From Selaginella tamariscina (lineage: Eukaryota; Streptophyta; Lycopodiopsida; Selaginellales; Selaginellaceae): DNA of 64,000 nt. Each line of letters begins with the position of its first letter. Positions within the stretch are counted from its first letter, which is position 1. Both the position numbers and the translations under genes were made by a program. Under the pieces are notes generated by a model that was given only the letters and a program-made list of their open reading frames with translations, was not told the origin of the DNA and did not search any database. Shown piece after piece: positions 1 through 50,882 of the stretch. The stretch is taken from the NCBI GenBank assembly GCA_003024785.1, contig PUQB01000311.1, positions 62,001-126,000 of the forward strand, given 5' to 3'.

Positions 1-2911
1 TTTGAACCACCTCCACGTTGTTGATCCGACCTTGAAGAATCTTTGCCTGGTTGTAATGTTTCTCATGTTCCTTGGACATTCTTGTTGGTGTTCGCACACT
101 CCGTCCATGGTATGTTGGTACTCTATGTGCTCCCTCTCCTCTTGGTGGTGATGGTGTTCGATCCATTCGGCTACTACTGTCGTCTACCATTTCTTCAAAT
201 CCCTCCAACTTGAATCCTGCTTTCAGAAGAGCTTCAACCTCATTTGCATTCAAGTTTGTTCCTTTTTGAACTGGCCAAACCTCTGGAACTTCTGGAATAC
301 TCTCAGGAGGAATCCCTGCATATGGTCGTCTGAAGCAACAAGAATCGCGTGGGCAGAACCATACATCTGATGAGTGAACTCAATGTTCCCAAATGCATTT
401 GTATATTGCCGTCTACCGTGAAATCCTGGTGCCGGTACACGATGTGGATATCCTATGGGTCTGCCACACTTGCTGTTACCGTCCTGAGTGAGACCTAGAC
501 ATTTCACCTGACTTGCCTCCCCAATGCGTCTGATGGCCCACTGAGTCATCAACGTCTCTCTTTCAGTGACATTGACATCTTGAAACTTGAGTTTTTTCCT
601 GCGTGCATTTGGGATGACTTGTTCTGCATATTGTGTGTCATGTCTATGTGTACGAAGTGCATCAATCCCATGGTCCCCAGTTGACGGTTGACGAACGGTT
701 CGAACACGAACATTTGTTGTAGAGGCAAACTCTGGACTTGCAAGATGCTCTTCATCACTAACAAGATTTGCAAAAGTTGTTGGAGACACTGATTTTCCCG
801 CTGAAAGTTTCTGCTGTGCACGTTTCAGAAGAGTTTCCATGGAAGGACCTGTGCCTGAATATCTCCCTTCAAATGATGCCTTGACCTTTGCACTTTGGAA
901 AACAGCATCTGTTAAATCTAACATTGTTGCCTCCAACAAAGGAACACGCTTCGTCAGCCTTGCTCTTCGTGCTCTTGCATGAACAACTTCGGAGTTGTTA
1001 GTGGTAGGCACATTCGCAACACCATCTTCTGTCAAGTCAATTATCTCTGTCATGGAAATATGATCTTCATGTCTTGCCCACCATGACAGCCATGTTTGCA
1101 AAGCGCTAACGTTACTGGACCTGCCTTCCCAAAATGACTCCAACATTACTCGTCGTTCCAACTTATCTTGGTTGGTTAGTGCTGCAGGCCATGAGCGTGC
1201 AAGGTTCATGTGCTCCTCCCTGTGTTCCTCAAGTATCCACTTCTTTGTAACTTGACGCACTGACTGCATGTAATGGAACAAACAACTCCTTTCTCTTCCT
1301 CTCATCTTTGACCCATTGTTGAAAACTTGACGCAATGCTAACCAAATTGCACCTGACTCATCTGACATGAACCCCGCAAAGTTCACATTATGAAGTCCTT
1401 GCTTGCTGCACACTTGAAGCATAGTGTTCAAAAATTTGATCACCGCCACACTATCCTCCCTGATCATGTCACCATAAGCAAGTGTCACCATCGACCTTAA
1501 ACTACACAAACATAAGTGCATTATATTAGTAAGTATTTTAAAACATAGATATGTTAATACTTACAATGGATCATAGAGATGTATTCCCAGTGTACACCAA
1601 TCATCAATACGATATGTGTGGTCTAGCACCACCCACTGCTGTTCGAGATCACCTCCAGATTGACACCTTCTAATGTAGTCTATTCCGGATCCTGGGCCGG
1701 CAACCGTCATTTTGAAGATTAAAGGCTGCTCTTCAGCTCCGTTGAGGTCCATTCCGGGTATGTGGATAACATGTATGAATGGGATTGATAGCTTCTTCTT
1801 TAACTGCAGAAGTCCTTCGTAACCTTCTTTGAAACGAGTGTCTCTTGTTCTAGCCTGAGATATCCATTCTCTTGTTCTACAGTGGAAAGGTTAAGCATCT
1901 CCAAAAGGAAATAATAATTTTTTTGCTTACCGGCGGTGATTTGTGAGTGGTAGTAGATCTGACAGAACCTTGTCGTATGATACATCTCCAGAATCTGTTA
2001 CCAGTTTTTCCAAAATTATATTGCGTGCTGCTTGAAACTCTATGACACGTTGATTAGTTCTTGGGGTTGCAGCGACTGCTTTGTTGATTGTCTCCTTAGC
2101 TCTGTCTTTAGAGACCATGGATTCGGGTGGTCTACGTGGATGTTGATGTTCTCCAAGATGGATGAAAAGCCTCGTGCATGTGATATCATCTGGAATTATG
2201 TAATATGCAACAACGGAGCATGTCTGCACTAGAAGGGGCTCATTGTTGCAATGCACACACTTCATTCCAAGCACTCTACCATCTGAAGATAACTGGACTT
2301 TATCAATGGTGCCCTTAAATTGGCAGTCATTTGCTTTCTTACTTGAAGCTGATGAACGGACATGTTTCCTTTACGCATTTCATGTGGCCAATACATGAAC
2401 TGCGACTAACACGAGCTGGAACATTCCAATGTGTTGTGCAGCGTTGAGTCCAGTAATCACACCCATCCTTCCTATTCATCCCTTTGTACTTGTCCTTCAT
2501 TGTTTCGTGTGCTGGCAACTCGTAAATCACATTTCCGTTGCAATCTTCTGGGACCTCAGCAACTTGCTGAATCGATGACGAGACCACCAGTTGCTTCCCA
2601 ATCCTACATCTCTGACTATTGCGAAGTATTGTTACCATAGAATTGTCCCGATCTGTTGTCTCCAACCGGAATAGTGGTCCTTTGGAAGGAAGAAGTGTGT
2701 AATACACAAAACTGCTAGCTCTTGCCCCTTCTGGTTCTACCTCAACATTCGCAGCATCTCCACCAACAACAGACATCAAATGCAGCACTTTAAAAGATTG
2801 CCAAGGTGGAATGTCAAATGCAGACCTGAGATCTGTTTCAAAGACAAATGCAATACCATCTTCATCTGCAGGGAAGTCCTTGTCAACACCATTGTAGCTG
2901 ATTCTTGCCAT
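1..2911 (-). pseudogene. MULE transposase, frameshifted copy, 3' end outside window
   Basis: Same gene as the intact transposase at 16144-19317. By comparison, the exons are 1931-2911, 1565-1876 and 1-1501, separated by introns of 54 bp and 63 bp with GT..AG ends. Two lesions break the frame: one extra base near 2342-2346 creates a stop shortly after the Cys-rich region, and one missing base near 363 shifts the last visible part of exon 3. The SWIM zinc finger would lie beyond position 1 and cannot be checked. The DDE-bearing exons 2 and 3 are otherwise conserved. I infer that this copy makes no full transposase, although the right copy could act on it in trans. Confidence 0.85.
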
Positions 2912-3830
2912 GTAGCAAAAATGGAACAAACAAAAGTTAAAATTCAAAGACAATGAACATATTACACACGATGGTTAATGTGTTTGTTAGTCGTGAGGCA
3001 ATCATTTCATTGACAAATATTAAAAATAATATTAATTGCGTGCGTCTGGGTAGAAGAGTGAAATTAATTTACTGCGTCTGGGTAGGTTTTTTGTAAATTA
3101 AAAAGTTTTACTATGTACAAGTGGCGATCATGCATGCAATATGTTTACAGAAATTAGGTTGGTTTTTAATTGATTTAGGGCGGCTAGGGTTTTGCAATTA
3201 GGGCGGCTAGGGTTTTGCAATTAGGGCGGCTAGGGCAGCTAGGGCGGCTAGGTTTTCGTGGAGCAGGGGCTCATTTGGGGGCATAGCGTGGAGCAAGTGT
3301 GGCTCCAGGGATTAATCACAATAGGCTTCCATTGAGGGGGTGAGTATTTTCTGATTTCTTCATGATCTGCTCATGATCTTTCATGATCTGTTCATCTTTT
3401 TACATCTCTTCACAGTTGCAAGAAATCCGAGTCGGCCTGCCGACTCGGACTGACTTCGTTGTCCGTCCCAGTCGGCAGGCCGACTGGGGTGGACTGTTCC
3501 AGATCCAGTCAACATTTTGACCGGGGTTGACTGTTCCAGCCCCAGTCAGCATTTTGACTAGGGTTGACTGTTCTAGTCCCACCTAGCATTTTGACTGGGC
3601 CTTGCTTCGTTCCCAGTCCCAGACTGGGCCTCCCTTTGTTGCCAGTCCCAGTCGGCATGCCGACTGGGACTCCCTTTGATGCCAGCCCAGTCGGCATGCC
3701 GACTGGGACTTACAGCAACTGCTCTCTCAGTCGGCACGCCGACTGTGAGGGCTAGTATGTTTTTTTAATTTTTATTAAACATCTTTGAACATTTATTACA
3801 GTTTTTTGTTAAACCTTATTGCTTTTGTAG
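2912..3830. promoter_or_regulatory. Divergent promoter region between transposase and methyltransferase genes
   Basis: About 0.9 kb separates the two outward-reading start codons, so both genes must be driven from here. It contains a short tandem repeat of the type AGGGCGGCTAGGGTTTTGCA (about 3176-3250) and, nearer the methyltransferase, an array of palindromes built on AGTCGGC (listed separately). No TATA box could be assigned with confidence. Confidence 0.6.
3427..3749. repeat. Cluster of 22-bp palindromes (AGTCGGC core)
   Basis: Four near-perfect palindromes have 10-bp arms and a 2-bp centre: 3427-3448 (CCGAGTCGGC arms) and 3467-3488, 3647-3668 and 3686-3707 (CCCAGTCGGC arms). A fifth, imperfect one lies at 3726-3749. 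Between them are degenerate half-sites of the type CCCAGTCAGC..TTGACTGGG. This spacing is irregular and the sequences between are not unique spacers. They resemble binding sites for a dimeric DNA-binding protein. Confidence 0.85.
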
Positions 3831-6800
3831 ATGCGCTCTTCACAACGTTTACAAGAAAAGAAGATGAAGGAGCCTACTGAGAGAGAAGCAGAAGCTAGAG
3901 CTGCAATTCAGAGAGGGCGTCGGGGTCGTGGGAGAGGAAGTAGGAAGCTGGCTGTGGTTCAGGAACAAGGACCTTCAAGTGATGCTCCAGTTGAACAGGC
4001 AAGCCAGCAGGACTGGTCAGGAGAGCAAGAGGATGTAGTTCAACCCCAACAAGAACAATCAGACTTTGTTGAAGAAGTTGAGGATGATGTCTTACCACAG
4101 GAGACACAGGAGCAGACAGAAGGCACACAAGCCTCATGCGCAGTGACTTTGTCGAGTGACGAAGAGGATGAACCCAAGAGCAAGAAGAGACGACGCAAAG
4201 CTGCTGGAGATTCAGAGGCTGCTAAGAAGAAGAAGAAGGGTAAAGCAGAAGTGCCAGATAATGAGGAAGTTTACAACATTGCAGCCAGCATGCATTCGGA
4301 GAGTGCAGTGCGTCTTCTCGCGAAGATCACAATCCGAGAATATGGAGAGGCACCGGATGTCCCTATTTGCCGAATTCTGGGAAATGAGCAGGTGCGGAGA
4401 GTCAATCCAGCGGATCTGGAATCTTTGACTAGGAGTTTCAAGAAGGCAGTTGGTTATTTGCGCAACACCACTCAGTTCATCCTTCAAGTTGGGGACCCCA
4501 TGACAGATGCAGATCTGGCAGCATTGAGAAGCGATGAAGCGATGTATGCTCAGCATTTGGCTTTTGAGGAGGAGCTTCAGTCTGACATGTTCCGGCAATG
4601 GGCACCAATGCTTTCGATGAAGAAGTTCATCTGTTGGGATGGTAATCACAGGCTAAAGGTGCTTCAGAAGCTGTACACAGAAGACACGGAAGATAAAATC
4701 AGTGGGCAGTGAGAGTGCGTTCAGGCTTCATCCGTGCTGGGGTCATGGATAATCTTCAGCTTGTGACAATGTTTCAGCAAATTAATAGGTAAACATAGTG
4801 ACCTCTAGATCATAGGATTAACTAACTTCGAGATTTTCAAATATGCAGTTCCTCCGCAACGGCAGTGCAAACCACACTGCCACATCTTCTGCTATCTGTG
4901 AAGACATGTTGCACCAGTGAGGAGGGCACAGCGAAGATCTTGGCCAGGCTCAGTGACAAGGAACGAGATGACATAAGAAAGTGGAAGGAAAGCGCAACTG
5001 GACAACAAGCTTGGCATCCACTTCCGAATTTGATCTGTGCAAAGATTTTTTTGAGGTACCACGTCTCACACTTATATTACTTAGTTGATTACGTCTGTGA
5101 ATTACAGAGTGAGATTGAGGATGATCTTGAGAAGGCTGCAAGGGCATCCAAAGGCAACAAATACCAGGAGCAACAACAGGTCTACATTAAGCATGACAAG
5201 CGCATGATGAAGATCTTAGCCATCATCGATCCTGCATTGGGTGAAGAGTGGTTCGACAAGGTGACCCAAATCACATGGAAACAATGCAGATGGATGGGGT
5301 TGGAAAAGCTGTACGCGCTTTCAAGGGCGAGAATTCCAAACGAGACGAGAATCATGTACTTCAATAAACTGGTACGTCTCGATCTGAAGAGAGAGCAAGA
5401 GACACTTGGATTGCCGGGTGTTCAGGATAAGGAGTGGATAAGGTGGTTTACTATCGATTTGTATTGGCGAGCGATCAGAGAGGAGGCAGTACAGATTCTC
5501 ACGGGACTCATCGAGGATGGCGAGTGGAGCAGGCCGGTTACAGATTTCACGACTTGGTACGATGAAGTGCGGGTAAAATGCAAGAACGTGATGTTCCAGC
5601 CATTCCATGAGTGTGTGAAGTTCACTTACTCCATAGAGCCGAAAGAGTTCCTCGAACACGAAGAGACAGCAAGAAGGATGATTTGGAGGTAAGGATGATC
5701 TTCTTGACATTGTTACATTCTGACACTACTATATGTTCATTACAGGTATGTCGCAGCGAGAAAGGTGCCTCACACACAGACTATGGTATTCTGGTCAGAT
5801 TACATGGAAGCACCACACATGTGGTCGAAGACAAGATCTGGCCTGACAGAGTTCGACGTGTACACGTACCGTTCTGGCTTGATTATCCACCTGGGCAACC
5901 ACCAACATGGGAGAAGGATCTCTACAATGAACACTCAAAAGATCTCCCATGCATCTCATGGGATCCGGCAGAGGTCGACTTCATTAAGAAGACAAAGGCC
6001 AAGGCAAAGCGGCGTCAGCCTGTGCAGCAGTCAAAGAAGACCTCAGATACAGTAGCTGGCACCTCCACTACTCGCGATCCAGCTGCCTTCTTCAATTTAT
6101 CTGAAGTGCTACCATCGCAGGGAACCATGGACATCAAGGATGACTTGGTCACATTCGTCCCTTCACTTGCTACAACTCGAGGTGATAATTTCTTGGCGAT
6201 TGATGACATCGAGGAGATGCAACAGGCCGTGCTCACGGATGAGAAGGAAGAGGAGGTTCCTGACGCTAGACTGGTTCCTTATAGAAAAGTTCAGACACAG
6301 GTGGCCAGGTACCATACAGCTGACAGCCAGACTCGCTACCAGCATATTGCGGGAGAATATGGTTTCAACTTGGTGATCTTCGACCTTCCAAATGGGACCT
6401 TGCCAGGAAATACAACGAGTGATACGCCATACCTCTACCTTGATCCAGTGAAGTTCGATGAAGCACTCCAGTTTGCAGGTATGCATATGGCTGCAAATGG
6501 TTGGTTGGTTGTGTTTGCTGCAGCAAACACCTGGGATCAAGTTGTCCGAGCTGCAAGTGTGGTGGACCTTCAACTTGCTGCAACGTACTACATCTACAGA
6601 GGGCGTGGTTGGGGCTACCGCAACAAGATGAAGGTACTTTTTTCTTTATTCATGAAGTTCATTAATGATTTTTGATGTTTTAACAGGAGAGCATCCTGCT
6701 CCTTCTTGTCTTCCAAGATGCATCTAGAGGATTGCGCGATAATCCGCTGCGTTTGTCATCAACAATTCTTGTTGATAATCCTGAGCGGTTCCAAGAACCA

Positions 6801-7149
6801 TGGTAGGCATTTCATTTCAACAATTTAAGTATTTACCATTATCTTCACATGCAGGATGGACTACCAACCGAAGAGCACTCGATTGATGCAGCTCGTGATA
6901 GAACGACTCACCCGGCCAGGTGATCTTATCTGGGATATAGGCAGTGGTACGGGGTCCTCAATGCTTGCAGCTATCGAGCTGGGGAGAAACATTGTTGGGA
7001 CTGAGAAGAACCCTGAGCTCGGGAGAATTGCTATGAACAGGATTAAAGAGAACATCCAGCCAGAGGAAATCCCAACCCAACCAATAGCGACGTCAAGTAG
7101 GACTGGTGGTTCACGAATTGCAGCATTGCTCAATCGTAAGAAGAAGTGA
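3831..7149 (+). pseudogene. ParB-like / DNA methyltransferase gene carried by the MULE (copy 1)
   Basis: Six exons can be placed: 3831-4788, 4849-5055, 5108-5688, 5746-6633, 6687-6802 and 6855-7149. Their introns are 52-60 bp with GT..AG ends. The N-terminus has an Arg/Gly AT-hook-like stretch (residues 28-39), an acidic region, a basic NLS-like stretch (117-138) and a ParB-like segment (about 188-281) ending in CWDGNHRLKVLQ. The C-terminal third has FDLPNG at the place of motif IV, then a motif X-like helix, then DLIWDIGSGTGS and GRNIVGTEKNPE (motif I region): the IV-X-I order of beta-class N4/N6 DNA methyltransferases. Frameshifts relative to copy 2 lie near 4697, in the T run at 5046-5052, and near 5855. 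The methyltransferase part (exons 4b-6) is open here, whereas it is broken in copy 2. The middle, about 450 residues, is not recognised. Confidence 0.75.
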
Positions 7150-7179
7150 CAAGTGTTGAATTGTACTCTTTGGTGTTGA

Positions 7180-7185
7180 AATAAA
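7180..7185 (+). promoter_or_regulatory. Poly(A) signal of methyltransferase gene
   Basis: AATAAA lies 31 bases after the TGA stop at 7147-7149. The same hexamer is conserved in the other copy. Confidence 0.5.
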
Positions 7186-7263
7186 ACTTTAATAATACAG
7201 TATAAACATGGCTATGATTTAAATATTTTTTGTTGTTAATTGCCGACTGAGCCAAAATCCTAA

Positions 7264-7367
7264 ATTCTAAGAATATTTAGGAATATTCTAAGAATATTCT
7301 GGTAGATTCTTTAGAATATTCCGGGTCAAGCCCGGAAGCCCCGGAAGCCCTCTTTTTGTGGGGACTC
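7264..7367. repeat. Terminal region of MULE copy 1 with GAA/TTC array
   Basis: The outermost bases match the end of copy 2. Just inside, 7264-7322 contains repeated GAATATTC-type blocks (GAA and TTC modules, many 2 bases apart), a pattern matching heat shock elements (nGAAnnTTCn). The motif GCCGACTGAG at 7242-7251, just inside this block, repeats the AGTCGGC core of the central palindromes. Confidence 0.7.
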
Positions 7368-7985
7368 ATATAACATGTATATAACGCTTACTCTTGTTAT
7401 ATTTTTGTGTTTGGGAAGAGAGGAAGCAACTGTGCCAAGTTGTATGAAGCTGATTCTCTCACAACAGCCATGGGATCCTCAATAAGCTGCTCCAATATTG
7501 AAAAACGCATATTCGATCGTACAAACTTAGCCAGACTGTGCAACGCCTCTCTTCATAGTTATGGTTTATCTATTGAAGAAATAGAAAATATTACCACACA
7601 CACACACACGCACACGATACATTTATGAATGATAAAGCTTCCCATACACATAATTAAAAATGTTATATGTATCCAGATATGTATAATATAAATACGCATG
7701 ATATATATGTACTGTATACAATGTATAGATAAAAGTATGCGTGTATAAATGTCAAAATGAACACGTATACAAATACACATAACACAGCAGTTTTCTAGAC
7801 TACAAATCGTTTACAAAAGCAGTGGTACCTGTTCCCACCATTGAGGAAGCAACTCTGTTTCAGTTCGTAACTCACCAATGGATTTTGAAAGAGATATATA
7901 AGCCTGAAATAAATAGATTAACCTTTTGAAAATATATATACATAAACTGCATACTCGAGATTAAGTTTATATATAAATACATGTT
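7368..7985. other. Host DNA beside MULE copy 1, no confident gene
   Basis: There is an open stretch at about 7407-7600 (+) of mixed composition that I cannot assign to a family. It is followed by a CA microsatellite (about 7597-7618) and AT-rich DNA. The segment near 7825-7910 also looks exon-like but has no recognisable motif. Confidence 0.4.
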
Positions 7986-8956: not shown

Positions 8957-9395
8957 AGACAGCTAATCTTATAATTAATATAACTTATTGTTAATTTATA
9001 AAATAATCTAGACATAAATAAGTATATATTTTTATATAAACACTAAGCAAGGATACAAAAGTTTTTTGTTTATAGACTCACATATTTTAAGTAGTCTTAT
9101 CCCTAGATAAAGGATAGTTATTTTTCTTTTTTGAATTGTAAATTATGCCTTTTGAACTTTATAATTTGAATTGATCTAGTTAACCCACTTAACCTTTGAT
9201 AATTCAGTGAGAATTTTAATAATACAATCTATCTCATCGATAATAATTTTTAATTAAATTATTCAATTAAAATTAATTAAATACATTATATTTTAACAAA
9301 ATTAATATTTGGGCAAATTAATTAATATACATTTTGTTATACTGACTCCTTATAATACATTGATTTGGTCCCTGTTCTTCTGATTCATCGGCAAT
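8957..9395. other. AT-rich intergenic DNA
   Basis: No open frame of interest. The stretch is homologous to the DNA upstream of the other two LRR copies (27.06-27.4 kb same orientation; 50.25-50.7 kb inverted), so it belongs to the duplicated block. Confidence 0.6.
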
Positions 9396-11530
9396 ATGCT
9401 CATTCTAGTGATTTTCAATCTTCTGCTTGTAAATTTCTCATTATCTCATTCACCATGTCCACCGATTGACAATGAAATTGAAGCTTTGAAACTCTTGAGA
9501 AACGGGTTGAACATCTCATTCTGGAACCACACAGTTCATCCCAACAATTGGCAAGGTATAAAATGGAACTCACACGGTCAAGTGGAGAGCATAACCTTGC
9601 TCAATCACGGTCTCAAAGGAACTCTCAACTCCGTGTGGGATGGACTTCCTTCCTTGACTAGTCTCGATCTTTCACAGAATGCTATCACAGATATCAACTT
9701 CCATTGCAGTACCAAAACAACAGCAACATCAAAGAATTGAATCTGAGCTCCAACTTATTGCACGAAGAATCTCCCCAACAACCTGGTGGTTTTGGATCTC
9801 AGTAATAACTCTTTGAATGGCAGGATTCCTAAGTTCGACTCTCTGCGCGTTCTCAACTTGTCCTTGAACAACTTCACTGGGGATGTGTCTTTTGGTGACA
9901 ATGTCGAGCTTCAAGTGTTGGACCTCAGTTACAACAGATTCAATGGCTCCATTTCGAACTTATTGCAGTTGAAGAGTATTGAATTCATTAAGCTCTCGCA
10001 TCACGAGCTTGGAGGGGTCATACCCAACGAAGTCTTCCGACAAATGAGGAATTTAACAAGCCTCATGTTGTCGGGTAATCACTTTGTTGGGGGAATACCA
10101 ACACTCGAGAATTGTTATAGTCTTTCTTATGTTTACCTCACAACTAACAACTTGAGTGGAGGAATACCTTCAAGCCTTGGAAGACTTCCAGAGCTCTACA
10201 TTTTCGGTGTTGGTAACAACATGCTGTGGGGCCAACTTGTGTTTGAAGCTGGGAGTTTCCTTAAGTTATAAGTATTGATTTTACAAGGAAACAACTTTGA
10301 AGGGACTCTCCCTAGCAGCTTAGGAGGCCTGCAGAGGTTGGAGACACTATAGCTAAGTCACAATGGATTCACTGGCAATCTACCTCCTGAGATAAGTAAC
10401 TGCTCGCTGCTCGAAGCACTTTGGGTCAATGGCAACATGCTAAGTGGTCCTATTCCTGCTGATCTTTCCAAACTCAATCGTTTTTGAATGACAACTTGAT
10501 TTCTGGGGAAATCCCTCCAGAGTTGTCCAATTGCTCTCAACTTGAAGTCTTGGATTTAAGAAAGAACAATTTAACAGGCAGACTGCCGGAGAGCCTCGGA
10601 GACATACACAACTTGCTGTTTTAATCAATTTCAAACAACAAACTTAGTGGTAACATCCCAGCAACATACAAGAACTTGAAGTCGTTATTGTTGTTTTCAG
10701 GCTGGCTATAATATGCTGTCCGGAGAGCTTCCTATGGCACTTGGAGAGCTTCAATCTCTTCAGGTTTTGTTCTTATCCAAGAACCGATTCTCTGGGGATA
10801 TTCCCAGGTGGTTACGAACATGACACAGCTTCGGGCGGTAGATTTTCTCATACATAACTTCACTGGACAGATACCACCAGCATTTTCTTATCTTTTCCAA
10901 GATGTGTTATTATACAAAAAGAGCACGGAGACTGCTCTAATCAGTCTTGACACACATGAGATAGCCATAGCTCTTAACCTCTCACATAACGAGTTAACTG
11001 GGAGTATTCCAGCTGAAGTTGGGAATATGCATAAGTTACAAGTGTTGGACTTGAGTGGTAACCTCCTCAGTGGTTCAATTCCAGACAACCTCGGACACGC
11101 TAGGCAACTCCTCAAGCTCAATCTATCAATGAACGAGCTTACAGGTCACATCCCGACCTCTCTTGCAGATCTTTCTTTCCTCTCATCTCTAGACGTGCCG
11201 TACAACCGTCTCGAAGGCAGGATTCCGCAGTCCGGACAGTTTCTAACATTTCCGAATGTGTCTTTCATCGGTAATCAGTTGTGCGGAGCTCCACTTGGCG
11301 AATGTAGTTTGCCAACTCAAGATCCTTCTCTGGATGTTCAGGTTTCTAAGGAGCAACTTATACAGGTGGATTCCGTGGTGATATTTGAAGTTACTTTCTT
11401 ATGTGCATTCTTCGTCAGTTCCCTTGGGACGTACTTTGCACTCTCGCATCCGGTTTTAGGCACCAAAGATCTTCAGTATTACGAAAACATATTTCATGTA
11501 GAAAAGGGTATTAAATTGAGTTTTAATTAA
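9396..11530 (+). pseudogene. LRR receptor-like protein (RLP) pseudogene L1
   Basis: It begins with a hydrophobic signal peptide (MLILVIFNLLLVNFS) and an N-terminal LRR cap (IDNEIEALKLLRNGL), followed by many plant-type LRRs and a C-terminal cap (NQLCGAPLGEC). A membrane segment (VVIFEVTFLCAFFVSSLG) and a short tail come last, with no kinase domain: the layout of an RLP that senses ligands at the cell surface. The reading frame is broken several times: a shift near 9720-9780, a stop near 10269, further stops or shifts between 10340 and 10800, then a long open final part (about 10808-11530). It has no visible intron. It is the most complete of three copies in the window (L1-L3). Confidence 0.8.
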
Positions 11531-11746
11531 ACTACCACACTCTCTCTCTCTCTAACCACCTGTTCTACGCAGCAAATTTGTTATTAAAAATGTAAGATTA
11601 ACTGTTAACATATGCCATTTGTTCATGTTAAACTTTTTATAATACGATTAATATTATCTCCAACACTAGGGTTCATCAAAATATATAAAAAGTGGGTGTT
11701 AAATTGAGTTTTAATTAAACTACACACTCTCTCTTTCTCTCTCTAA
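11515..11746. repeat. Tandemly duplicated 3' flank of LRR gene
   Basis: The run beginning TTAAATTGAGTTTTAATTAA at about 11513 recurs at about 11699. The first unit continues through CTCTCTCTAACCACC into sequence that, for the second unit, is found only after the MULE (19524 on). Unit 1 is therefore the uninterrupted version of the MULE insertion site. Confidence 0.75.
11738..11746. repeat. MULE target site duplication, left
   Basis: TCTCTCTAA immediately precedes the element end GAGTCCC and is repeated at 19515-19523. A 9-bp duplication is typical of Mutator-like elements. Confidence 0.8.
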
Positions 11747-11863
11747 GAGTCCCAACAAAAAGGGGCTTCCGGGCTTAGACCCGGAATATTCTAAAGAATC
11801 TACCAGAATATTCTTAGAATATTCCTAAATATTCTTAGAATTTAGGATTTTGGCTCAGTCGGC
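11747..11863. repeat. MULE terminal region, methyltransferase side
   Basis: End sequence GAGTCCCAACAAAAA, then GAA/TTC modules from 11782 to about 11840, then CTCAGTCGGC at 11854-11863, which repeats the core of the central palindromes. Confidence 0.75.
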
Positions 11864-11919
11864 AATTAACAACAAAAAATATTTAAATCATAGCCATGTT
11901 TATACTGTATTATTAAAGT

Positions 11920-11925
11920 TTTATT
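11920..11925 (-). promoter_or_regulatory. Poly(A) signal of methyltransferase gene, copy 2
   Basis: AATAAA on the - strand, about 30 bases after the stop codon at 11956-11958, conserved with copy 1. Confidence 0.5.
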
Positions 11926-11955
11926 TCAACACCAAAGAGTACAATTCAACACTTG

Positions 11956-14900
11956 TCACTTCTTCTTACGATTGAGCAATGCTGCAATTCGTGAACCACC
12001 AGTCCTACTTGACGTCGCTATTGCTTGGGTTGGGATTTCCTCTGGCTGGATGTTCTCTTTAATCCTGTTCATAGCAATTCTCCCGAGCTCAGGGTTCTTC
12101 TCAGTCCCAACAATGTTTCTCCCAGCTCGATAGCTGCAAGCATTGAGGACCCCGTACCACTGCCTATATCCCAGATAAGATCACCTGGCCGGGTGAGTCG
12201 TTCTATCACGAGCTGCATCAATCGAGTGCTCTTCGGTTGGTAGTCCATCCTGCATGTGAAGATAATGGTAAATACTTAAATTGTTGAAATGAAATGCCTA
12301 CCATGGTTCTTGGAACCGCTCAGGATTATCAACAAGAATTGTTGATGACAAACACGGATTATCGCGCAATCCTCTAGATGCATCTTGGAAGACAAGAAGG
12401 AGCAGGATGCTCTCCTGTTAAAACATCAAAAATCATTAATGAACTTCATGAATAAAGAAAAAAGTACCTTCATCTTGTTGCGGTAGCCCCAACCACGCCC
12501 TCTGTAGATGTAGTACGTTGCAGCAAGTTGAAGGTCCACCACACTTGCAGCTCGGACAACTTGATCCCAGGTGTTTGCTGCAGCAAACACAACCAACCAA
12601 CCATTTGCAGCCATATGCATACCTGCAAACTGGAGTGCTTCATCGAACTTCACTGGATCAAGGTAGAGGTATGGCGTATCACTCGTTGTATTTCCTGGCA
12701 AGGTCCCATTTGGAAGGTCGAAGATCACCAAGTTGAAACCATATTCTCCCGCAATATGCTGGTAGCGAGTCTGGCTGTCAGCTGTATGGTACCTGGCCAC
12801 CTGTGTCTGAACTTTTCTATAAGGAACCAGTCTAGCGCAGGAACCTCCTCTTCCTTCTCATCCGTGAGCACGGCCTGTTGCATCTCCTCGATGTCATCAA
12901 TCGCCAAGAAATTATCACCTCGAGTTGTAGCAAGTGAAGGGACGAATGTGACCAAGTCATCCTTGATGTCCATGGTTCCCTGCGATGGTAGCACTTCAGA
13001 TAAATTGAATAAGGCAGCTGGGTCGCGAGTAGTGGAGGTGCCAGCTACTGTATCTGAGTTCTTCTTTGACTGCTGCACAGGCTGACGCCGCTTTGCCTTG
13101 GCCTTTGTCTTCTTAATGAAGTCGACCTCTGCCGGATCCCATGAGATGCATGGGAGATCTTTTGAGTGTTCATTGTAGAGATCCTTCTCCCATGTTGGTG
13201 GTTGCCCAGGTGGATAATCAAGCCAGAACGGTACGTTTACACGTTCGAACTCTGTCAGGCCAGATCTTGTCTTCGACCACATGTGTGGTGCTTCCATGTA
13301 ATCTGACCAGAATACCATAGTCTGTGTGTGAGGCACCTTTCTCGCTGCGACATACCTGTAATGAACATATAGTAGTGTCAGAATGTAACATTGTCAAGAA
13401 GATCATCCTTACCTCCAAATCATCCTTCTTGCTGTCTCTTCGTGTTCGAGGAACTCTTTCAGCTCTATGGAGTAAGTGAACTTCACACACTCATGGAATG
13501 GCTGGAACATCACGTTCTTGCATTTTACCCGCACTTCATCGTACCAAGTCGTGAAATCTGTAACCGGCCTGGTCCACTCGCCATCCTCGATGAGTCCCGT
13601 GAGAATCTGGACTGCCTCCTCTCTGATCGCTCGCCAATACAAATCGATAATAAACCACCTTATCCACTCCTTATCCTGAACACCCGGCAATCCAAGTGTC
13701 TCTTGCTCTCTCTTCAGTTCGAGACGTACCAGTTTATTGAAGTACATGATTCTCGTCTCGTTTGGAATTCTCGCCCTTGAAAGCGCGTACAGCTTTTCCA
13801 ACCCCATCCATCTGCATTGTTTCCATGTGATTTGGGTCACCTTGTCGAACCACTCTTCACCCAATGCAGGATCGATGATGGCTAAGATCTTCATCATGCG
13901 CTTGTCATGCTTAATGTAGACCTGTTGTTGCTCCTGGTATTTGTTGCCTTTGGATGCCCTTGCAGCCTTCTCAAGATCATCCTCAATCTCACTCTGTAAT
14001 TCACAGACGTAATCAACTAAGTAATATAAGTGTGAGACGTGGTACCTCAAAAAAAATCTTTGCACAGATCAAATTCGGAAGTGGATGCCAAGCTTGTTGT
14101 CCAGTTGCGCTTTCCTTCCACTTTCTTATGTCATCTCGTTCCTTGTCACTGAGCCTGGCCAAGATCTTCGCTGTGCCCTCCTCACTGGTGCAACATGTCT
14201 TCACAGATAGCAGAAGATGTGGCAGTGTGGTTTGCACTGCCGTTGCGGAGGAACTGCATATTTGAAAATCTCGAAGTTAGTTAATCCTATGATCTAGAGG
14301 TCACTATGTTTACCTATTAATTTGCTGAAACATTGTCACAAGCTGAAGATTATCCATGACCCCAGCACGGATGAAGCCTGAACGCACTCTCACTGCCCAC
14401 TGATTCTTATCTTCCGTGTCTTCTATGTACAGCTTCTGAAGCACCTTTAGCCTGTGATTACCATCCCAACAGATGAACTTCTTCATCGAAAGCATTGGTG
14501 CCCATTGCCGGAACATGTCAGACTGAAGCTCCTCCTCAAAAGCCAAATGCTGAGCATACATCGCTTCATCGCTTCTCAATGCTGCCAGATCTGCATCTGT
14601 CATGGGGTCCCCAACTTGAAGGATGAACTGAGTGGTGTTGCGCAAATAACCAACTGCCTTCTTGAAACTCCTAGTCAAAGATTCCAGATCCGCTGGATTG
14701 ACTCTCCGCACCTGTTCATTTCCCAGAATTCGGCAAATAGGGACATCCGGTGCCTCTCCATATTCTCGGATTGTGATCTTCGCGAGAAGACGCACTGCAC
14801 TCTCCGAATGCATGCTGGCTGCAATGTTGTAAACTTCCTCATTATCTGGCACTTCTGCTTTACCCTTCTTCTTCTTCTTAGCAGCCTCTGAATCTCCAGC

Positions 14901-15272
14901 AGCTTTGCGTCGTCTCTTCTTGTTCTTGGGTTCATCCTCTTCGTCACTCGACAAAGTCACTGCGCATGAGGCTTGTGTGCCTTCTGTCTGCTCCTGTGTC
15001 TCCTGTGGTAAGACATCATCCTCAACTTCTTCAACAAAGTCTGATTGTTCTTGTTGGGGTTGAACTACATCCTCTTGCTCTCCTGACCAGTCCTGCTGGC
15101 TTGCCTGTTCAACTGGAGCATCACTTGAAGGTCCTTGTTCCTGAACCACAGCCAGCTTCCTACTTCCTCTCCCACGACCCCGACGCCCTCTCTGAATTGC
15201 AGCTCTAGCTTCTGCTTCTCTCTCAGTAGGCTCCTTCATCTTCTTTTCTTGTAAACGTTGTGAAGAGCGCAT
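11956..15272 (-). pseudogene. ParB-like / DNA methyltransferase gene carried by the MULE (copy 2)
   Basis: The exons on the - strand are 14314-15272, 14046-14253, 13413-13993, 12468-13355, 12302-12414 and 11956-12249, with five introns of 52-60 bp. Exons 1-3 and the first half of exon 4 are open, including the AT-hook/NLS region, the ParB-like segment (CWDGNHRLKVLQ) and the unassigned middle. This copy is therefore better than copy 1 at its N-terminus. A one-base loss near 12838 shifts the frame before motif IV. A second near 12120 shifts it just after DLIWDIGSGTGS. A 3-bp in-frame loss also occurs in exon 5. ParB-like domains joined to or paired with DNA methyltransferases are known from phages and bacterial mobile elements; here the gene is interrupted by introns and rides in a eukaryotic transposon. 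Catalytic activity is doubtful because motif IV reads DLPN rather than D/N/S-PPY/F/W. Confidence 0.75.
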
Positions 15273-16143
15273 CTACAAAAGCAATAAGGTTTAACAAAAA
15301 ACTGTAATAAATGTTCAAAGATGTTTAATAAAAATAAAAAAACATACTAGCCCTCACAGTCGGCGTGCCGACTGAGAGAGCAGTTGCTGTAAGTCCCAGT
15401 CGGCATGCCGATGGGCTGGCATCAAGACTGGGCCTGGCAACAAAGGGAGGCCCAGTCTGGGACTGGGAACGAAGCAGGCCCAGTCAAAATGCTAGGTGGG
15501 ACTAGAACAGTCAACCCTAGTCAAAATGCTGACTGGGGCTGGAACAGTCAACCCCGGTCAAAATGTTGACTGGATCTGGAACAGTCCACCCCAGTCGGCC
15601 TGCCGACTGGGACGGACAACGAAGTCAGTCCGAGTCGGCAGGCCGACTCGGATTTCTTGCAACTGTGAAGAGATGTAAAAAGATGAACAGATCATGAAAG
15701 ATCATGAGCAGATCATGAAGAAATCAGAAAATACTCACCCCCTCAATGGAAGCCTATTGTGATTAATCCCTGGAGCCACACTTGCTCCACGCTATGCCCC
15801 CAAATGAGCCCCTGCTCCACGAAAACCTAGCCGCCCTAGCTGCCCTAGCCGCCCTAATTGCAAAACCCTAGCCGCCCTAAATCAATTAAAAACCAACCTA
15901 ATTTCTGTAAACATATTGCATGCATGATCGCCACTTGTACATAGTAAAACTTTTTAATTTACAAAAAACCTACCCAGACGCAGTAAATTAATTTCACTCT
16001 TCTACCCAGACGCACGCAATTAATATTATTTTTAATATTTGTCAATGAAATGATTGCCTCACGACTAACAAACACATTAACCATCGTGTGTAATATGTTC
16101 ATTGTCTTTGAATTTTAACTTTTGTTTGTTCCATTTTTGCTAC
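15273..16143. promoter_or_regulatory. Divergent promoter region, MULE copy 2
   Basis: The inverted counterpart of 2912-3830. It is shorter because part of the palindrome cluster is deleted (near 15410-15440). The TAGGG/CGGC tandem repeat lies at about 15825-15880. Confidence 0.6.
15353..15651. repeat. Palindrome cluster in MULE copy 2
   Basis: Intact palindromes lie at 15590-15611 (CCCAGTCGGC arms) and 15630-15651 (CCGAGTCGGC arms). An imperfect one lies at about 15353-15376 and a damaged one at 15395-15415. One palindrome present in copy 1 is lost, as expected for deletion between hairpin-forming repeats. Confidence 0.8.
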
Positions 16144-19100
16144 ATGGCAAGAATCAGCTACAATGGTGTTGACAAGGACTTCCCTGCAGATGAAGATGGT
16201 ATTGCATTTGTCTTTGAAACAGATCTCAGGTCTGCATTTGACATTCCACCTTGGCAATCTTTTAAAGTGCTGCATTTGATGTCTGTTGTTGGTGGAGATG
16301 CTGCGAATGTTGAGGTAGAACCAGAAGGGGCAAGAGCTAGCAGTTTTGTGTATTACACACTTCTTCCTTCCAAAGGACCACTATTCCGGTTGGAGACAAC
16401 AGATCGGGACAATTCTATGGTAACAATACTTCGCAATAGTCAGAGATGTAGGATTGGGAAGCAACTGGTGGTCTCGTCATCGATTCAGCAAGTTGCTGAG
16501 GTCCCAGAAGATTGCAACGGAAATGTGATTTACGAGTTGCCAGCACACGAAACAATGAAGGACAAGTACAAAGGGATGAATAGGAAGGATGGGTGTGATT
16601 ACTGGACTCAACGCTGCACAACACATTGGAATGTTCCAGCTCGTGTTAGTCGCAGTTCATGTATTGGCCACATGAAATGCGTAAAGGAAACATGTCCGTT
16701 CATCAGCTTAAGTAAGAAAGCAAATGACTGCCAATTTAAGGGCACCATTGATAAAGTCCAGTTATCTTCAGATGGTAGAGTGCTTGGAATGAAGTGTGTG
16801 CATTGCAACAATGAGCCCCTTCTAGTGCAGACATGCTCCGTTGTTGCATATTACATAATTCCAGATGATATCACATGCACGAGGCTTTTCATCCATCTTG
16901 GAGAACATCAACATCCACGTAGACCACCCGAATCCATGGTCTCTAAAGACAGAGCTAAGGAGACAATCAACAAAGCAGTCGCTGCAACCCCAAGAACTAA
17001 TCAACGTGTCATAGAGTTTCAAGCAGCACGCAATATAATTTTGGAAAAACTGGTAACAGATTCTGGAGATGTATCATACGACAAGGTTCTGTCAGATCTA
17101 CTACCACTCACAAATCACCGCCGGTAAGCAAAAAAATTATTATTTCCTTTTGGAGATGCTTAACCTTTCCACTGTAGAACAAGAGAATGGATATCTCAGG
17201 CTAGAACAAGAGACACTCGTTTCAAAGAAGGTTACGAAGGACTTCTGCAGTTAAAGAAGAAGCTATCAATCCCATTCATACATGTTATCCACATACCCGG
17301 AATGGACCTCAACGGAGCTGAAGAGCAGCCTTTAATCTTCAAAATGACGGTTGCCGGCCCAGGATCCGGAATAGACTACATTAGAAGGTGTCAATCTGGA
17401 GGTGATCTCGAACAGCAGTGGGTGGTGCTAGACCACACATATCGTATTGATGATTGGTGTACACTGGGAATACATCTCTATGATCCATTGTAAGTATTAA
17501 CATATCTATGTTTTAAAATACTTACTAATATAATGCACTTATGTTTGTGTAGTTTAAGGTCGATGGTGACACTTGCTTATGGTGACATGATCAGGGAGGA
17601 TAGTGTGGCGGTGATCAAATTTTTGAACACTATGCTTCAAGTGTGCAGCAAGCAAGGACTTCATAATGTGAACTTTGCGGGGTTCATGTCAGATGAGTCA
17701 GGTGCAATTTGGTTAGCATTGCGTCAAGTTTTCAACAATGGGTCAAAGATGAGAGGAAGAGAAAGGAGTTGTTTGTTCCATTACATGCAGTCAGTGCGTC
17801 AAGTTACAAAGAAGTGGATACTTGAGGAACACAGGGAGGAGCACATGAACCTTGCACGCTCATGGCCTGCAGCACTAACCAACCAAGATAAGTTGGAACG
17901 ACGAGTAATGTTGGAGTCATTTTGGGAAGGCAGGTCCAGTAACGTTAGCGCTTTGCAAACATGGCTGTCATGGTGGGCAAGACATGAAGATCATATTTCC
18001 ATGACAGAGATAATTGACTTGACAGAAGATGGTGTTGCGAATGTGCCTACCACTAACAACTCCGAAGTTGTTCATGCAAGAGCACGAAGAGCAAGGCTGA
18101 CGAAGCGTGTTCCTTTGTTGGAGGCAACAATGTTAGATTTAACAGATGCTGTTTTCCAAAGTGCAAAGGTCAAGGCATCATTTGAAGGGAGATATTCAGG
18201 CACAGGTCCTTCCATGGAAACTCTTCTGAAACGTGCACAGCAGAAACTTTCAGCGGGAAAATCAGTGTCTCCAACAACTTTTGCAAATCTTGTTAGTGAT
18301 GAAGAGCATCTTGCAAGTCCAGAGTTTGCCTCTACAACAAATGTTCGTGTTCGAACCGTTCGTCAACCGTCAACTGGGGACCATGGGATTGATGCGCTTC
18401 GTACACATAGACATGACACACAATATGCAGAACAAGTCATCCCAAATGCACGCAGGAAAAAACTCAAGTTTCAAGATGTCAATGTCACTGAAAGAGAGAC
18501 GTTGATGACTCAGTGGGCCATCAGACGCATTGGGGAGGCAAGTCAGGTGAAATGTCTAGGTCTCACTCAGGACGGTAACAGCAAGTGTGGCAGACCCATA
18601 GGATATCCACATCGTGTACCGGCACCAGGATTTCACGGTAGACGGCAATATACAAATGCATTTGGGAACATTGAGTTCACTCATCAGATGTTATGGTTCT
18701 GCCCACGCGATTCTTGTTGCTTCAGACGACCATATGCAGGGATTCCTCCTGAGAGTATTCCAGAAGTTCCAGAGGTTTGGCCAGTTCAAAAAGGAACAAA
18801 CTTGAATGCAAATGAGGTTGAAGCTCTTCTGAAAGCAGGATTCAAGTTGGAGGGATTTGAAGAAATGGTAGACGACAGTAGTAGCCGAATGGATCGAACA
18901 CCATCACCACCAAGAGGAGAGGGAGCACATAGAGTACCAACATACCATGGACGGAGTGTGCGAACACCAACAAGAATGTCCAAGGAACATGAGAAACATT
19001 ACAACCAGGCAAAGATTCTTCAAGGTCGGATCAACAACGTGGAGGTGGTTCAAAGAGGGAAGACTGAGGCCTTCATTGTCTCTGCAGGCATGCAATCTGC

Positions 19101-19317
19101 TAAGGTAACAATTTCTACTGTTCCGTCATGCACTTGTGCAACTTTTCAGAAAGCCAAGAACTGGAGCCCCTGCCAACACATGTATTTTGTGTACACTCAT
19201 GTTCTTGGATTGGACCCAACGATTACTTACTTCTTACAGAGGCGGACCCTTACTCCAGCAGAAGTGCATCGGTTATTGGTTGATTGCAAGCGCAATGTCG
19301 AACCTGCGACCTTTTAA
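16144..19317 (+). CDS. MULE transposase, intact, three exons
   Basis: Exons 16144-17123, 17178-17489 and 17553-19317 join in frame across introns of 54 and 63 bp, giving about 1018 residues. I chose ATG 16144 (MARISYNGVD) because the upstream open extension starts from a non-ATG codon. A Cys/His-rich region (about residues 145-265, ending GEHQHP) resembles the WRKY/FLYWCH type of MULE N-terminal zinc finger. The DDE core shows LDHTYR (first Asp, about 413), FMSDESGA (second Asp, about 477) and the family CxxH motif SCLFH, with the catalytic Glu expected after it. Near the C-terminus, CTCATFQKAKNWSPCQH (about 957-974) is a SWIM zinc finger (CxC..CxH). The protein should cut and join the element ends in the nucleus and may mobilise copy 1 too. 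It is the only long gene here without a lesion. Confidence 0.85.
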
Positions 19318-19407
19318 GTCCAGTCGGTATAGTAAAGTCTAGTCGGCAAATAATTAGCGTTTTTCACTTGTTGGTCGGCATTTTATATGAAAGTTAAAGA
19401 TAATCTA

Positions 19408-19514
19408 CTTGGCAGAATATTCTAGAATATTCCCGTTTATTTGACAGAATATTCCTGGATATTCGGGAATATGCGAAAAGCCCGTTGTACGAAGCCCGGT
19501 TTTTGCTAATCCTC
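19408..19514. repeat. MULE terminal region, transposase side
   Basis: Contains GAATATTCTAGAATATTC (19415-19432), four perfectly phased GAA/TTC modules, followed by further modules to about 19472. The reverse complement of the end is GAGGATTAGCAAAAACCGGG. AGTCGGC copies lie just inside, at about 19321-19374. Confidence 0.75.
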
Positions 19515-19961: not shown

Positions 19962-20046
19962 CCTTCTCATTGGTGGAGAAGTTGGGCAATCCTTTTCGGC
20001 TTAGTTTTTTTGTGTTCTTTTTGTCTCCCTCTTCCCTTGTGTTCTT

Positions 20047-20969
20047 GTGGTGATGGCGACCGAAGAAAGGTGGTTGCAGTTGTTCGATGCACTGCAATTG
20101 AGCGTGGCAAATCAACTGCTCTTTGCGAAAATTCACCAAGGAATGCAGCAGAATGCTAGTATGCCGCAGAGTTCCAATCCACACCTTTTGGGTTCCAATC
20201 CACGTTTCGTCCAGAATTCTTCAAGGGGAGTTTGGAAGACGTGTACCATTGGTGGGAACATTTTCAAGGGATTGCTGACTTATGGATGGTCTGACTCCCA
20301 GCGGTTGCGAGAGTTCCCAACGTGTTGCAAGGACTTGCCTTGCAATGGTACAATGGTGTCCCCGTTCTTGATCGACAAGATTGGAACATCTTATCCCAGC
20401 GTTCAAGCAAGCTTTTGGTAAGCCCGAGGATTCTGCTGCAGCTTTTCGTGAGCTCCATGACTTGAAGCAAGTGTCGGGAGAGACGTCCAGATTCGGGATT
20501 AAGTTTCGAAACTTGGTCAATCGTGCGATCCAAGCATGACAGAACGGGTACGTTGGGCTTGGCTCTTCGCCTGATTTGGCTGGCTTGGTGGAGGGATTTG
20601 GTCCTTCGACTGTGGAGGAGGCCTTGCGGATTGCACAACGATTTGAGAACTCATTGGGGCAGCACAACGTGTATATCCTGTATCGGCACCTATTCCTGGG
20701 ACATCCGATCCTGTTCCGATGGAGGTGGGTGCTGTTCAGATGGAGGACCAGTCCTCAGGCCGCAGGAGGGGCCCAGGCCAAGCTGCTGATCGCGTGGTCG
20801 TGGTCGGTCGTGGTCGTGGTCGTGGTGTGGTCGTGGGCGGAACATTCAGTGCTATGAGTGCCGAGGTTGGGGACATGTTGCACGAGCATGTGCAAATCGA
20901 CATCAAGTAGCTGCCATCGAGATTGCAGAAGAAGTGGAGACTCTTCCGCAGCCGGAAAACGAGGCATAG
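20047..20969 (+). pseudogene. gag remnant of Ty3 element 1
   Basis: Broken gag reading frames run from about 20047 (ATGVMATEER-like start in several frames). They end in a recognisable zinc knuckle at about 20850-20892, CYECRGWGHVARAC (CX2CX4HX4C), which binds RNA during particle assembly, and then a TAG at 20967-20969. Frameshifts between 20420 and 20830 prevent one continuous product. The knuckle is in a different frame from the pol frame that overlaps it from 20858. Confidence 0.7.
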
Positions 20970-23900: not shown

Positions 23901-24252
23901 GTTGGAGCATTTGAACCAAGTCCTTCCTCTGTTGTATGCTCAAGGTGGAGAACAGTTAGCTCGTGCACAAGAGTATCAGCGTCGGACTTACAATCAACGA
24001 CATCGAATGCCACCTCAATACCAAGTGGGAGATTTGGTTCTCGTCAAGTTTCCAAGGTTAGGGGATCAAACACACGCAGCAGGGCTTCAACCACGATGGG
24101 TCGGGCCTTGGAGTGTTGAAGAACAGTTGGGAACACAGGTGTATCGCTTGAAGCGGCGTGATGGGGTTCGGGAGTCACAACATGTCGCTCATGTGTGTCG
24201 GCTACTACCGTTCCACCAACGGACACTCGTCCAAGGAGGAGGACCACCTTGA
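20858..24252 (+). pseudogene. pol polyprotein of Ty3 element 1, integrase frameshifted
   Basis: The open frame 20858-23539 covers an aspartic protease (VDSGSS at about 21177), reverse transcriptase with YIDDLLIHS (about 22105), RNase H (LRTDASDVGLGA region, about 22545 on), an H2C2 integrase finger (HMGF..CPECQRH) and the start of the integrase core (AYDIMGPF). A shift at about 23525-23540 moves the rest, ILSDQGP and HPETDGLVERLNR (second Asp and catalytic Glu), into another frame that stays open to 24252. No chromodomain is visible at the C-terminus. The element cannot make a complete integrase and is probably dead, although the RT part is well preserved. Confidence 0.85.
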
Positions 24253-47084: not shown

Positions 47085-48100
47085 ACACAAAAGGTTCAAA
47101 TTTTGCTGAGGCTGTAGGTATTATTAATATAATGGTTCTGTGTGGGAGCGCAACTCAATATGGGCCAAGTTATTTAACAGGCTGCTACATCGTTATATTA
47201 AATTTAGAAATCTTAGGAAATGTTTGTGTTAGAGCTGCATAACTATGCTTTACTGTATACAGTATATAATTCAAGTCAATAGATGCGTGTCTGCATGCGT
47301 TATTGTAGAAACCATACACTTTATGTGATTCAAGTGTTTAAAAGATCTTGATAAGGATGTTCCTGCTGAAAAGTCTTCAGTGAAGCCGTGTAGAATTGGA
47401 GTTTTGTATAGTCAAAAGTTCTGCAAATTAAACAAATTTATCCTGTTTATTGTAGACAAAAGCTTTCTTCAATCACTCTGCTGTCCTCACTTTTGAACTG
47501 AAAAGCGTGTGTGTTACACGTCTCTTATTTGTATGCTCGAAGAAACTTACGAAAAAGATAGTACACACACACACGTGGTAACATATAATGAGAGTCTGGA
47601 ATACCCTATGTAAATAAAATGGTTAATGAAAATAATTCACTTGATTTTCCCTTAGAATGTACTATAATTATGGTATTTATACAAGTGAAAAAATTTAAAA
47701 TTGTACTATATTGAATAGCCAGATGTTCTCGTTACAAGAACATACATGTACATGTTTATATTTGCTGAAGGAACTTATTAAGATTTCAAACATTTTAAAT
47801 TGCAACTTTTTAAATATTTAAATATGAGCAATAAGCTACTAATATAGCTAATAATAATAAAACGCTAAATTAGTTTGTTACTTTTTTAAAATAACTAATT
47901 TCTATTGCTATGTTCCCAATGGTCATTAGACTTTTTATATATTTTGATGAACCCTAGTGTTGGAGATAATATTAACCGTAATATAAAAGTTTAACAAGGC
48001 ATATGTTAACAGTTAATCTTACATTTTTAATAACAAATTTGCTGCGTAGAACAGTTAGAGAGAGAAAGAGACAGTGTGTAGTTTATTTAAACTCACGTTT
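47085..48100. other. Spacer between K5 and L3
   Basis: A partial tRNA-Val-like sequence at about 47078-47117 is followed by AT-rich DNA that is the inverted copy of 24.6-25.1 and 28.3-29.1 kb. No gene. Confidence 0.5.
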
Positions 48101-50200: not shown

Positions 50201-50882
50201 ATTGCTGATGAATCAAAGAACAGGGACGTTCAATTACCAGATCGATATACTCACTATATAATATACAGGAGTCAAAGTAACATATACAAAATGTGTATTA
50301 ATTAATTAATTTGCCTAAATATTAACTTTGTTAAAATATAATTTATTTAATTAATTTAATTGAATAATTTAATTAGAAATTATTATCAATGAATTGAACA
50401 TTGATTAAAATTCTCACTGGATTATGAATTAAACAGATCGTATTCCAAAGGTTAAGGGGTTAACTGATGAATTCAAATTTTAAAGTTCAAAAAAGAAAAG
50501 AACCATATGTGACAAGTGCACGTCTATAAATATAATGTAAATATAATAATAAAATCTAGTGGCAATACAACACAGTAAATACACAGAGACAAAAAACTTT
50601 TGTATCCTTGTATTCAATCTTAGGGTTTATATAAAAATATATATATTTCTAATATAAGATTAGTTATACCATAAATATCTTTAGTAACTTCTAAATATAC
50701 CAAAATTACCACCATTATTAATGTATATATATACACATAAAATACATATATTTAAATTAGTTATTGATATATCCCATTGTATAAATTGTTTATATCATAG
50801 CATACATACATGTATATATGTTGTACGCTGCTTTACGTCTATTCCCGTTATCAAGCACTTACATCGTAGGAAGTTTTTTGAG

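Follow-up and report, generated by a model that had tools for sequence, protein, structure and literature searches.

Why should a plant transposon carry, beside its transposase gene, a second gene whose product joins a methyltransferase fold to what is probably a ParB-like domain? The question is raised by a stretch of 64,000 nucleotides from Selaginella tamariscina (assembly GCA_003024785.1, contig PUQB01000311.1, positions 62,001 to 126,000 of the forward strand; hereafter the window), in which a first-pass annotation had described a Mutator-like element (MULE) with a ParB-like and DNA methyltransferase gene as its cargo. The element has two genes and the layout of an autonomous MULE-like transposon; the transposase gene and the divergent accessory gene (the cargo) form one mobile unit, and its family is high-copy and recently active. 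The answer that we favour, and that we hold to be evenly balanced between right and wrong, is that the accessory protein is an element-specific DNA-binding protein acting on the element's own AGTCGGC arrays in the manner of the VANC proteins of Arabidopsis VANDAL MULEs, for regulation or anti-silencing, its catalysis being uncertain. The question is now testable, given a high-copy recent family, two diverged families, a cargo apparently under selection, a candidate binding motif and an altered catalytic motif.

Two divergent genes in one mobile unit

The boundaries and the two divergent, intron-containing genes that had been annotated are borne out. The first copy (copy 1) is flanked on both sides by the target-site duplication (TSD) TCTCTCTAA, at a CT-rich site where the match extends up to 11 bp, and an unoccupied relative of the insertion site lies within the window. 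Its terminal inverted repeats (TIRs) are imperfect, about 24 bp long (GAG...CAAAAA..GGGCTTC), and the element ends read GAG. All introns of the two genes are GT-AG, 52-63 nt long (52-60 nt in the cargo). An inverted second copy (copy 2), complete in the contig with ATGTTATAT as its TSD, is 98.8% identical to copy 1 (BLASTN, 7,375 columns); it had escaped the first-pass annotation, as had three features taken up below, namely two frame breaks in the cargo, the DLPN motif and the AGTCGGC arrays.

The search of the host assembly (300.7 Mb, 1,391 contigs) gave 1,408 first-look candidates, and all 20 that were scored matched; apart from copy 1 itself, five near-full-length matches are 97-99% identical. 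The exon that encodes the ParB-like segment has at least 151 matches (150 scored among 1,409 candidates), a lower bound to which one broken copy could contribute twice, and among the matches listed most are 97-100% identical. We assembled a set of 21 copies (20 fetched and the window copy), with both ends located in 16 of them; the other five had an end missed by the end pattern, and default ends were used there for motif counts. Among the 16 two-ended copies, 12 have perfect TSDs (at least 9 bp), one has a TSD with a mismatch and three have none, where scoring accepted lengths of 8-11 and, per end, as many as 2 positions of shift, and where two of the 12 share an identical flank. Two loci, L033 and L045, match the element to its position 7743 only and beyond it carry one alternative sequence, which may represent a different form of the right end or a deletion common to both.

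The cargo and the transposase also occur together in a second family. The methyltransferase model PF01555 found at least 150 matches in the assembly (150 scored of 739 candidates), all above the cut-off and including some outliers. The three outlier loci that were fetched (L046-L048, out of at least seven picked) show the same divergent arrangement, with identities to the first family of 34-71% for cargo pieces and 40-88% for transposase pieces, introns and frame breaks included, so that the two genes travel together in two families whose proteins are roughly half identical. The linkage that the first-pass annotation had proposed to check thus holds in copy 2, in the further copies and in the second family.

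Membership among the MULEs is indicated by the ends, that is by TIRs and by a TSD of the expected kind (9 bp expected, 8-11 in range). No MULE domain model matches the transposase at E <= 10, and its SWIM-type finger scores 14.5 bits in the whole protein, below the Pfam cut-off of 19.6 (19.7 for a hand-cut piece); of the SWIM-type MULE transposase that had been annotated, a SWIM-like finger below the cut-off and MULE-like ends stand. By eye, the protein shows a D412...D478...C504..H507 pattern, which may belong to a MULE-type DDE domain, and a Cys/His-rich N-terminal half. Among 5,478 candidates from a protein-database search the transposase had no relative, a scan of viral contigs gave one pattern match of which none was confirmed, and a search of solved structures returned nothing meaningful.

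The accessory protein

The majority sequence of 17 cargo copies is a single open reading frame (ORF) of 1,015 aa with no internal stop; these are 17 of the 21 copies, four that cover less than 95% of the gene having been dropped (none of the 21 for the transposase). The C-terminal stretch matches PF01555 (N6_N4_Mtase) with E 3.3e-9 and 37.5 bits against a cut-off of 26.7, and phage DNA methyltransferase families match it as well (best E 4e-12). The best solved structure is the adenine methyltransferase MboIIA (E 5e-4), and 11 NCBIfam matches to this part all fall under the curated cut-offs. A profile alignment (31-231 to 58-265, probability score 98.3) begins at motif IV and reaches motif I, the permuted order; its N half alone scores 5.6, yet beats 300 of 300 shuffles. 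On this evidence the cargo C-terminus is a permuted (beta-class) amino-methyltransferase fold, with the IV-X-I order that had been annotated.

The S-adenosylmethionine (SAM)-binding motif I (DIGSGTG) is intact in 16 of the 17 copies. Motif IV reads DLPN in all 17, where the canonical form would be (D/N/S)PP(Y/F/W), and DLPN recurs in both second-family loci that read through this position. It could be taken for the decay of one copy, a notion that we reject since it is present in 17/17 copies and in the second family. Eleven aligned relatives have DPPF, DPAY, DPPY, DIPY or DLPY at this place, and none has DLPN. Motif IV uses its aromatic residue to stack against the base to be methylated, and we infer from DLPN that methyltransferase activity is reduced or absent.

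That the cargo also holds a ParB-like domain is probable, judged by profile comparison. The ParB profile comprised 17 sequences, 13 from phage loci (picked among 40 listed of 641 records, two of them without a methyltransferase) and 4 of 7 database proteins, and the CWDGNHR segment of the cargo aligns in register with its GxxR motif. With one cargo family, 3 of 300 shuffles score equally well. With both families the alignment scores 25.6, a value above those of all 300 column shuffles, the probability score is 10.2 (the control with other cargo regions is for one family only) and an upstream R..NP..L..S motif falls at the expected place, collinear with ParB. Control windows from the transposase and from a retrotransposon Pol score at most 18.0 (99 windows in all).

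Direct searches for relatives of this part gave little. In the seven best protein matches to the cargo (E 0.18-0.95), PF01555 is present in all seven, and ParB_N is found below the cut-off in six and missed in the seventh. No match to phages was obtained by tblastn with the ParB-like segment at E <= 10, a scan of viral contigs with half of the cargo produced eight pattern matches and no confirmed one, and a search of solved structures with the ParB-like part returned nothing meaningful. Single-sequence structure models of two exon pieces were uninformative, with predicted local distance difference test (pLDDT) values of 40 for the ParB-like segment and 50 for the other. Between the two domains lies a long middle region without recognised relatives, and the whole-cargo protein-database search (7,996 candidates scored) found none for the protein as a whole. 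The N-terminus is RG-rich by eye and has lysine-rich runs resembling a nuclear localization signal (NLS); of the AT-hook/NLS N-terminus that had been annotated these runs stand, and the canonical GRP core of an AT-hook was not seen there by eye.

Frame breaks and selection

Copy 2 reads through at both frame breaks of the window cargo and carries breaks of its own in both genes. As the breaks are single-base, some of those in the window copies may be assembly errors. Across the family we count 62 frame-breaking indels in 17 cargo copies against at most 16 in 21 transposase copies, the latter an over-count in which three bases behind the stop codon scored as a break in the intact window copy. 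Two of the 17 cargo copies are free of frame-breaking indels, and the same two are free of them in the transposase. Nonsense changes number one in the cargo and none in the transposase; that 62 frame breaks stand against a single nonsense change in the cargo suggests uncorrected long-read assembly errors. We also considered that the frame breaks mark a dead gene family, and rejected this because the majority ORF is intact and silent changes are in excess among the shared polymorphisms.

That excess suggests purifying selection. Shared, and hence older, polymorphisms of the cargo comprise 13 nonsynonymous and 13 synonymous changes against a neutral expectation of 3.09:1 (p 0.005), and the private changes (35 nonsynonymous, 12 synonymous; p 0.87) look neutral, both p-values treating related copies as independent. 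The corresponding counts for the transposase are 4:7 (shared) and 6:0 (private). The pattern fits a cargo under purifying selection while the element moves and decaying afterwards, and the substitution counts would suggest as much.

The two window copies differ by 18 substitutions in their aligned part, 14 in cargo exons and one in transposase exons. Their divergence lies almost wholly in the cargo half (11747-15272) and barely in the transposase half (16144-19054), a distribution that would suit mosaic copies or partial conversion. Ten of 13 simple codon changes between the two cargos, as read from sequence contexts, alter the protein; the fourteenth cargo-exon substitution abuts a 3-base indel and is outside this count.

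AGTCGGC arrays in the non-coding parts of the element

An unbiased list of every 7-mer shared by both ends of copy 1 and its centre has four entries: AGTCGGC, two overlaps of it, and AAATAAA. AGTCGGC occurs once at each end of copy 1 and seven times in the centre between the genes, with no occurrence in 6.1 kb of coding sequence and none in 48.9 kb of other window sequence, and all 20 occurrences in the window lie inside the two element copies. The sequence flanking the 21 copies, about 12 kb in all, has no site. The 16 two-ended copies carry between 9 and 31 sites and, with one mismatch allowed, 3-15 palindromes in arrays of varying length, the window copy having the fewest palindromes among them. 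Where end sites are found, the distance to the terminus is 109-127 bp on the left and 150-176 bp on the right; the left-end site is missing in L029 and L031.

The centre of the second family carries the AGTCGGC half-site too, often paired 31-32 bp apart, and one half-site lies past the end of its cargo gene, near its left end. The centres of the two families are hardly alignable, with short matches of which the best spans 42 columns at 76% (E 0.003). A half-site conserved in centres that can otherwise hardly be aligned points to an element-encoded protein as its reader. Another repeat, GAATATTC, was considered as a private motif of the element and rejected, since five of its palindromes lie outside both copies in the window.

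What might the accessory protein do?

In the reading that we favour, the AGTCGGC arrays on all copies would be bound by a protein that the element encodes, with the accessory protein as the likeliest candidate, and this protein would act on its own element in the way VANC proteins serve VANDAL MULEs. Binding to the arrays could keep the shared promoter region open or regulated, the sites at the ends would couple array function to transposition, and the methyltransferase fold may serve as a DNA module that holds SAM or senses bases, or retain a weak or changed activity. VANC proteins remove silencing (PMC5735166; PMC10398659), and the short motifs bound by VANC21 are tandemly repeated in non-coding regions of VANDAL21, terminal and intergenic ones among them (PMC5735166). 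The two systems share a MULE with an extra protein and short family-specific motifs in fast-changing non-coding tandem repeats. They differ in that VANC21 motifs stand in one orientation whereas the motifs here form palindromes, and in that VANDALs are described with degenerate TIRs; the proteins are likened by description. The favoured reading would link ParB-methyltransferase accessory proteins to experimentally known MULE anti-silencing systems.

Several findings weigh against this reading. No ParB model in Pfam, PHROGs or NCBIfam matches the cargo, which leaves the CWDGNHR stretch as the part of the annotated ParB-like segment that stands, and with one family another region of the cargo outscores the ParB-like segment on the same profile (25.0 vs 22.0). 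The transposase could equally be the reader of AGTCGGC. The excess of frame breaks may mean that the cargo is dispensable in many copies, or may reflect single-base assembly errors, and the case for selection leans on counting related copies as independent. Lastly, DLPN differs from the DLPY of a phage relative at the aromatic residue only, and activity may still be possible.

A more specific scenario, which we regard as less likely than not, is that a ParB-like clamp, fused to a methyltransferase fold that lacks the canonical catalytic motif yet is kept by selection, loads on parS-like palindromic AGTCGGC arrays found in the element alone and wards off host silencing from every copy through recognition of SAM or of bases rather than through methylation. 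If true, it would amount to a self-recognition system made of prokaryote-type parts inside a plant transposon.

Three alternatives were weighed. AGTCGGC might be the site of the transposase or of a transposition helper, with the ends building a synaptic complex and the centre autoregulating the divergent promoter. Such a role is rather unlikely: there is indeed one site near each end, where found, pieces of the transposase tend to exceed those of the cargo in conservation between the families, and the N-terminal half of the transposase is Cys/His-rich, but most sites are central rather than terminal (the window copy has 7 of its 9 there, and other copies have more), and the GAATATTC repeats at both ends are an alternative candidate for end recognition. 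Unlikely, in our view, is that the accessory protein catalyses N6-adenine or N4-cytosine methylation and so marks element DNA through ParB-like targeting; that it may mark element DNA was one option named in the first-pass annotation, and such a role has been proposed for algal transposon accessory proteins (PMC12477816). The PF01555 match, the full order of motifs and the nearly invariant motif I would agree with an active enzyme, and two phage relatives with DLPY and DIPY indicate that the second position of motif IV tolerates Leu or Ile; the aromatic position is nonetheless Asn in every copy and in two second-family loci, which none of the aligned relatives shares, and this conservation speaks against a simple self-methylation idea and makes the marking of element DNA doubtful.

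Very improbable, finally, is a cargo captured as a gene that does nothing for the element. The 62 frame-breaking indels and the concentration of 14 of the 18 substitutions between the window copies in cargo exons would agree with a mere passenger; the silent excess among shared polymorphisms, the intact majority ORF and the conservation across two families do not.

Relation to known systems

ParB-methyltransferase accessory proteins of transposons are already reported in algae, and the MULE-like carrier is a variant of that theme. The accessory protein of Sola1-1_Ec32 from Ectocarpus has ParB-like and N4/N6 methyltransferase domains in 1,104 aa (PMC12477816), and the same account, which cites green and red algal relatives, calls it an 'intriguing gene' and proposes a role for it that is untested. 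As here, where the ParB-like part is the probable one, both domains sit in one large protein encoded on the strand opposite the transposase (1,104 aa there, 1,015 here). The carrier there is a Sola-1 element of 21.5 kb and here an 8-kb MULE-like element, and the two are likened by description; the section of the account that was examined mentions neither motif arrays nor loss of a catalytic motif. Our protein-database searches with the cargo returned no algal protein of this kind, and the literature searched, which included few subscription papers, held no MULE with a ParB-methyltransferase cargo and no such cargo in a land plant.

Phage and prophage fusions of ParB with N6_N4 methyltransferases likewise place a ParB-type segment N-terminal to a permuted amino-methyltransferase (PMC12704722). 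They are compact (385-501 aa in 11 loci and 4 proteins measured), unlike the cargo with its 1,015 aa, its long middle of no known family, its introns, its basic N-terminus and a best protein match of only E 0.18. The first-pass annotation had proposed capture from a phage; with best protein matches at E 0.18-0.95 and a long middle region lacking known relatives, the mobilised ParB-like and methyltransferase-like gene in a MULE-like element is supported and its phage origin is not.

Two further systems are comparable in part. DIRS1-type elements hold a catalytically inactive N6-adenine methylase (PMC3537659) and resemble the present element as eukaryotic mobile elements with a methyltransferase fold, theirs being described as inactive, which gives the favoured reading a precedent; they are tyrosine-recombinase retroposons of another architecture. 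Mariner elements of large viruses carry methyltransferase genes (PMC3627910), similarly as accessory genes of a cut-and-paste element, but theirs are of other methyltransferase classes and come with an endonuclease, and no ParB-like part is mentioned in the section available.

Features and surroundings of the element

Table 1. Coordinates of the element and its parts in the window
Feature	Position	Strand	Remark
Complete element, copy 1	11747..19514 (7,768 bp)	transposase +, cargo -	TSD and empty site
Left TSD TCTCTCTAA	11738..11746		
Right TSD TCTCTCTAA	19515..19523		
Left TIR GAGTCCCAACAAAAAGGGGCTTC	11747..11769	+	
Right TIR, reverse complement GAGGATTAGCAAAAACCGGGCTTC	19491..19514	-	
Insertion site of copy 1, unoccupied relative	47829..48095	-	
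Element copy 2, inverted	1..7370	-	cut by window edge
Transposase gene, three exons	16144-17123, 17178-17489, 17553-19317	+	1,018 aa, intact in window copy
SWIM-type zinc finger (CTCATF...CQHM)	19120..19203	+	
Cargo gene, six exons	15272-14314, 14253-14046, 13993-13413, 13355-12468, 12414-12302, 12249-11956	-	
ParB-like segment, with RRVNPADLESLTRSFKKA and CWDGNHRL	14200..14762	-	approximate; probable
Motif IV position, DLPN	12708..12719	-	degenerate
SAM-binding motif I, DIGSGTGS	12147..12170	-	
Frame break 1, window cargo	12837	-	one base fewer than copy 2
Frame break 2, window cargo	12120	-	one base fewer than copy 2
Subterminal AGTCGGC half-site, left	11857..11863	+	
Subterminal AGTCGGC half-site, right	19341..19347	+	
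Central array between the genes	15355..15651		units of ~37-40 bp; AGTCGGC-NN-GCCGACT forms a palindromic core in several
Subterminal GAATATTC palindromes, left	11784, 11806, 11817 (11784..11824)		
Subterminal GAATATTC palindromes, right	19415, 19425, 19447		

A Ty3/Gypsy-type retrotransposon adjoins the element at 20005-24252 (protease, reverse transcriptase, RNase H and integrase zinc finger by Pfam) and shifts frame near 23452-23539. Fragments of leucine-rich-repeat (LRR) genes at 9150-11693 and 47930-50492 are inverted copies of one another, about 90% identical (Pfam LRR), with an additional partial copy near 27468-28099; we take the LRR genes beside the element to be of receptor type, which gives the host a plant-like look. 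Three tRNA-Val (TAC) genes lie within 6 kb, at 31332, 36594 and 37007; a fourth tRNA match, at 44356-44440, is weak, and 42892-42954 holds related sequence. A tandem array at 58663-59262, built of 4-5 units of about 108 bp, is open in one frame over 184 codons.

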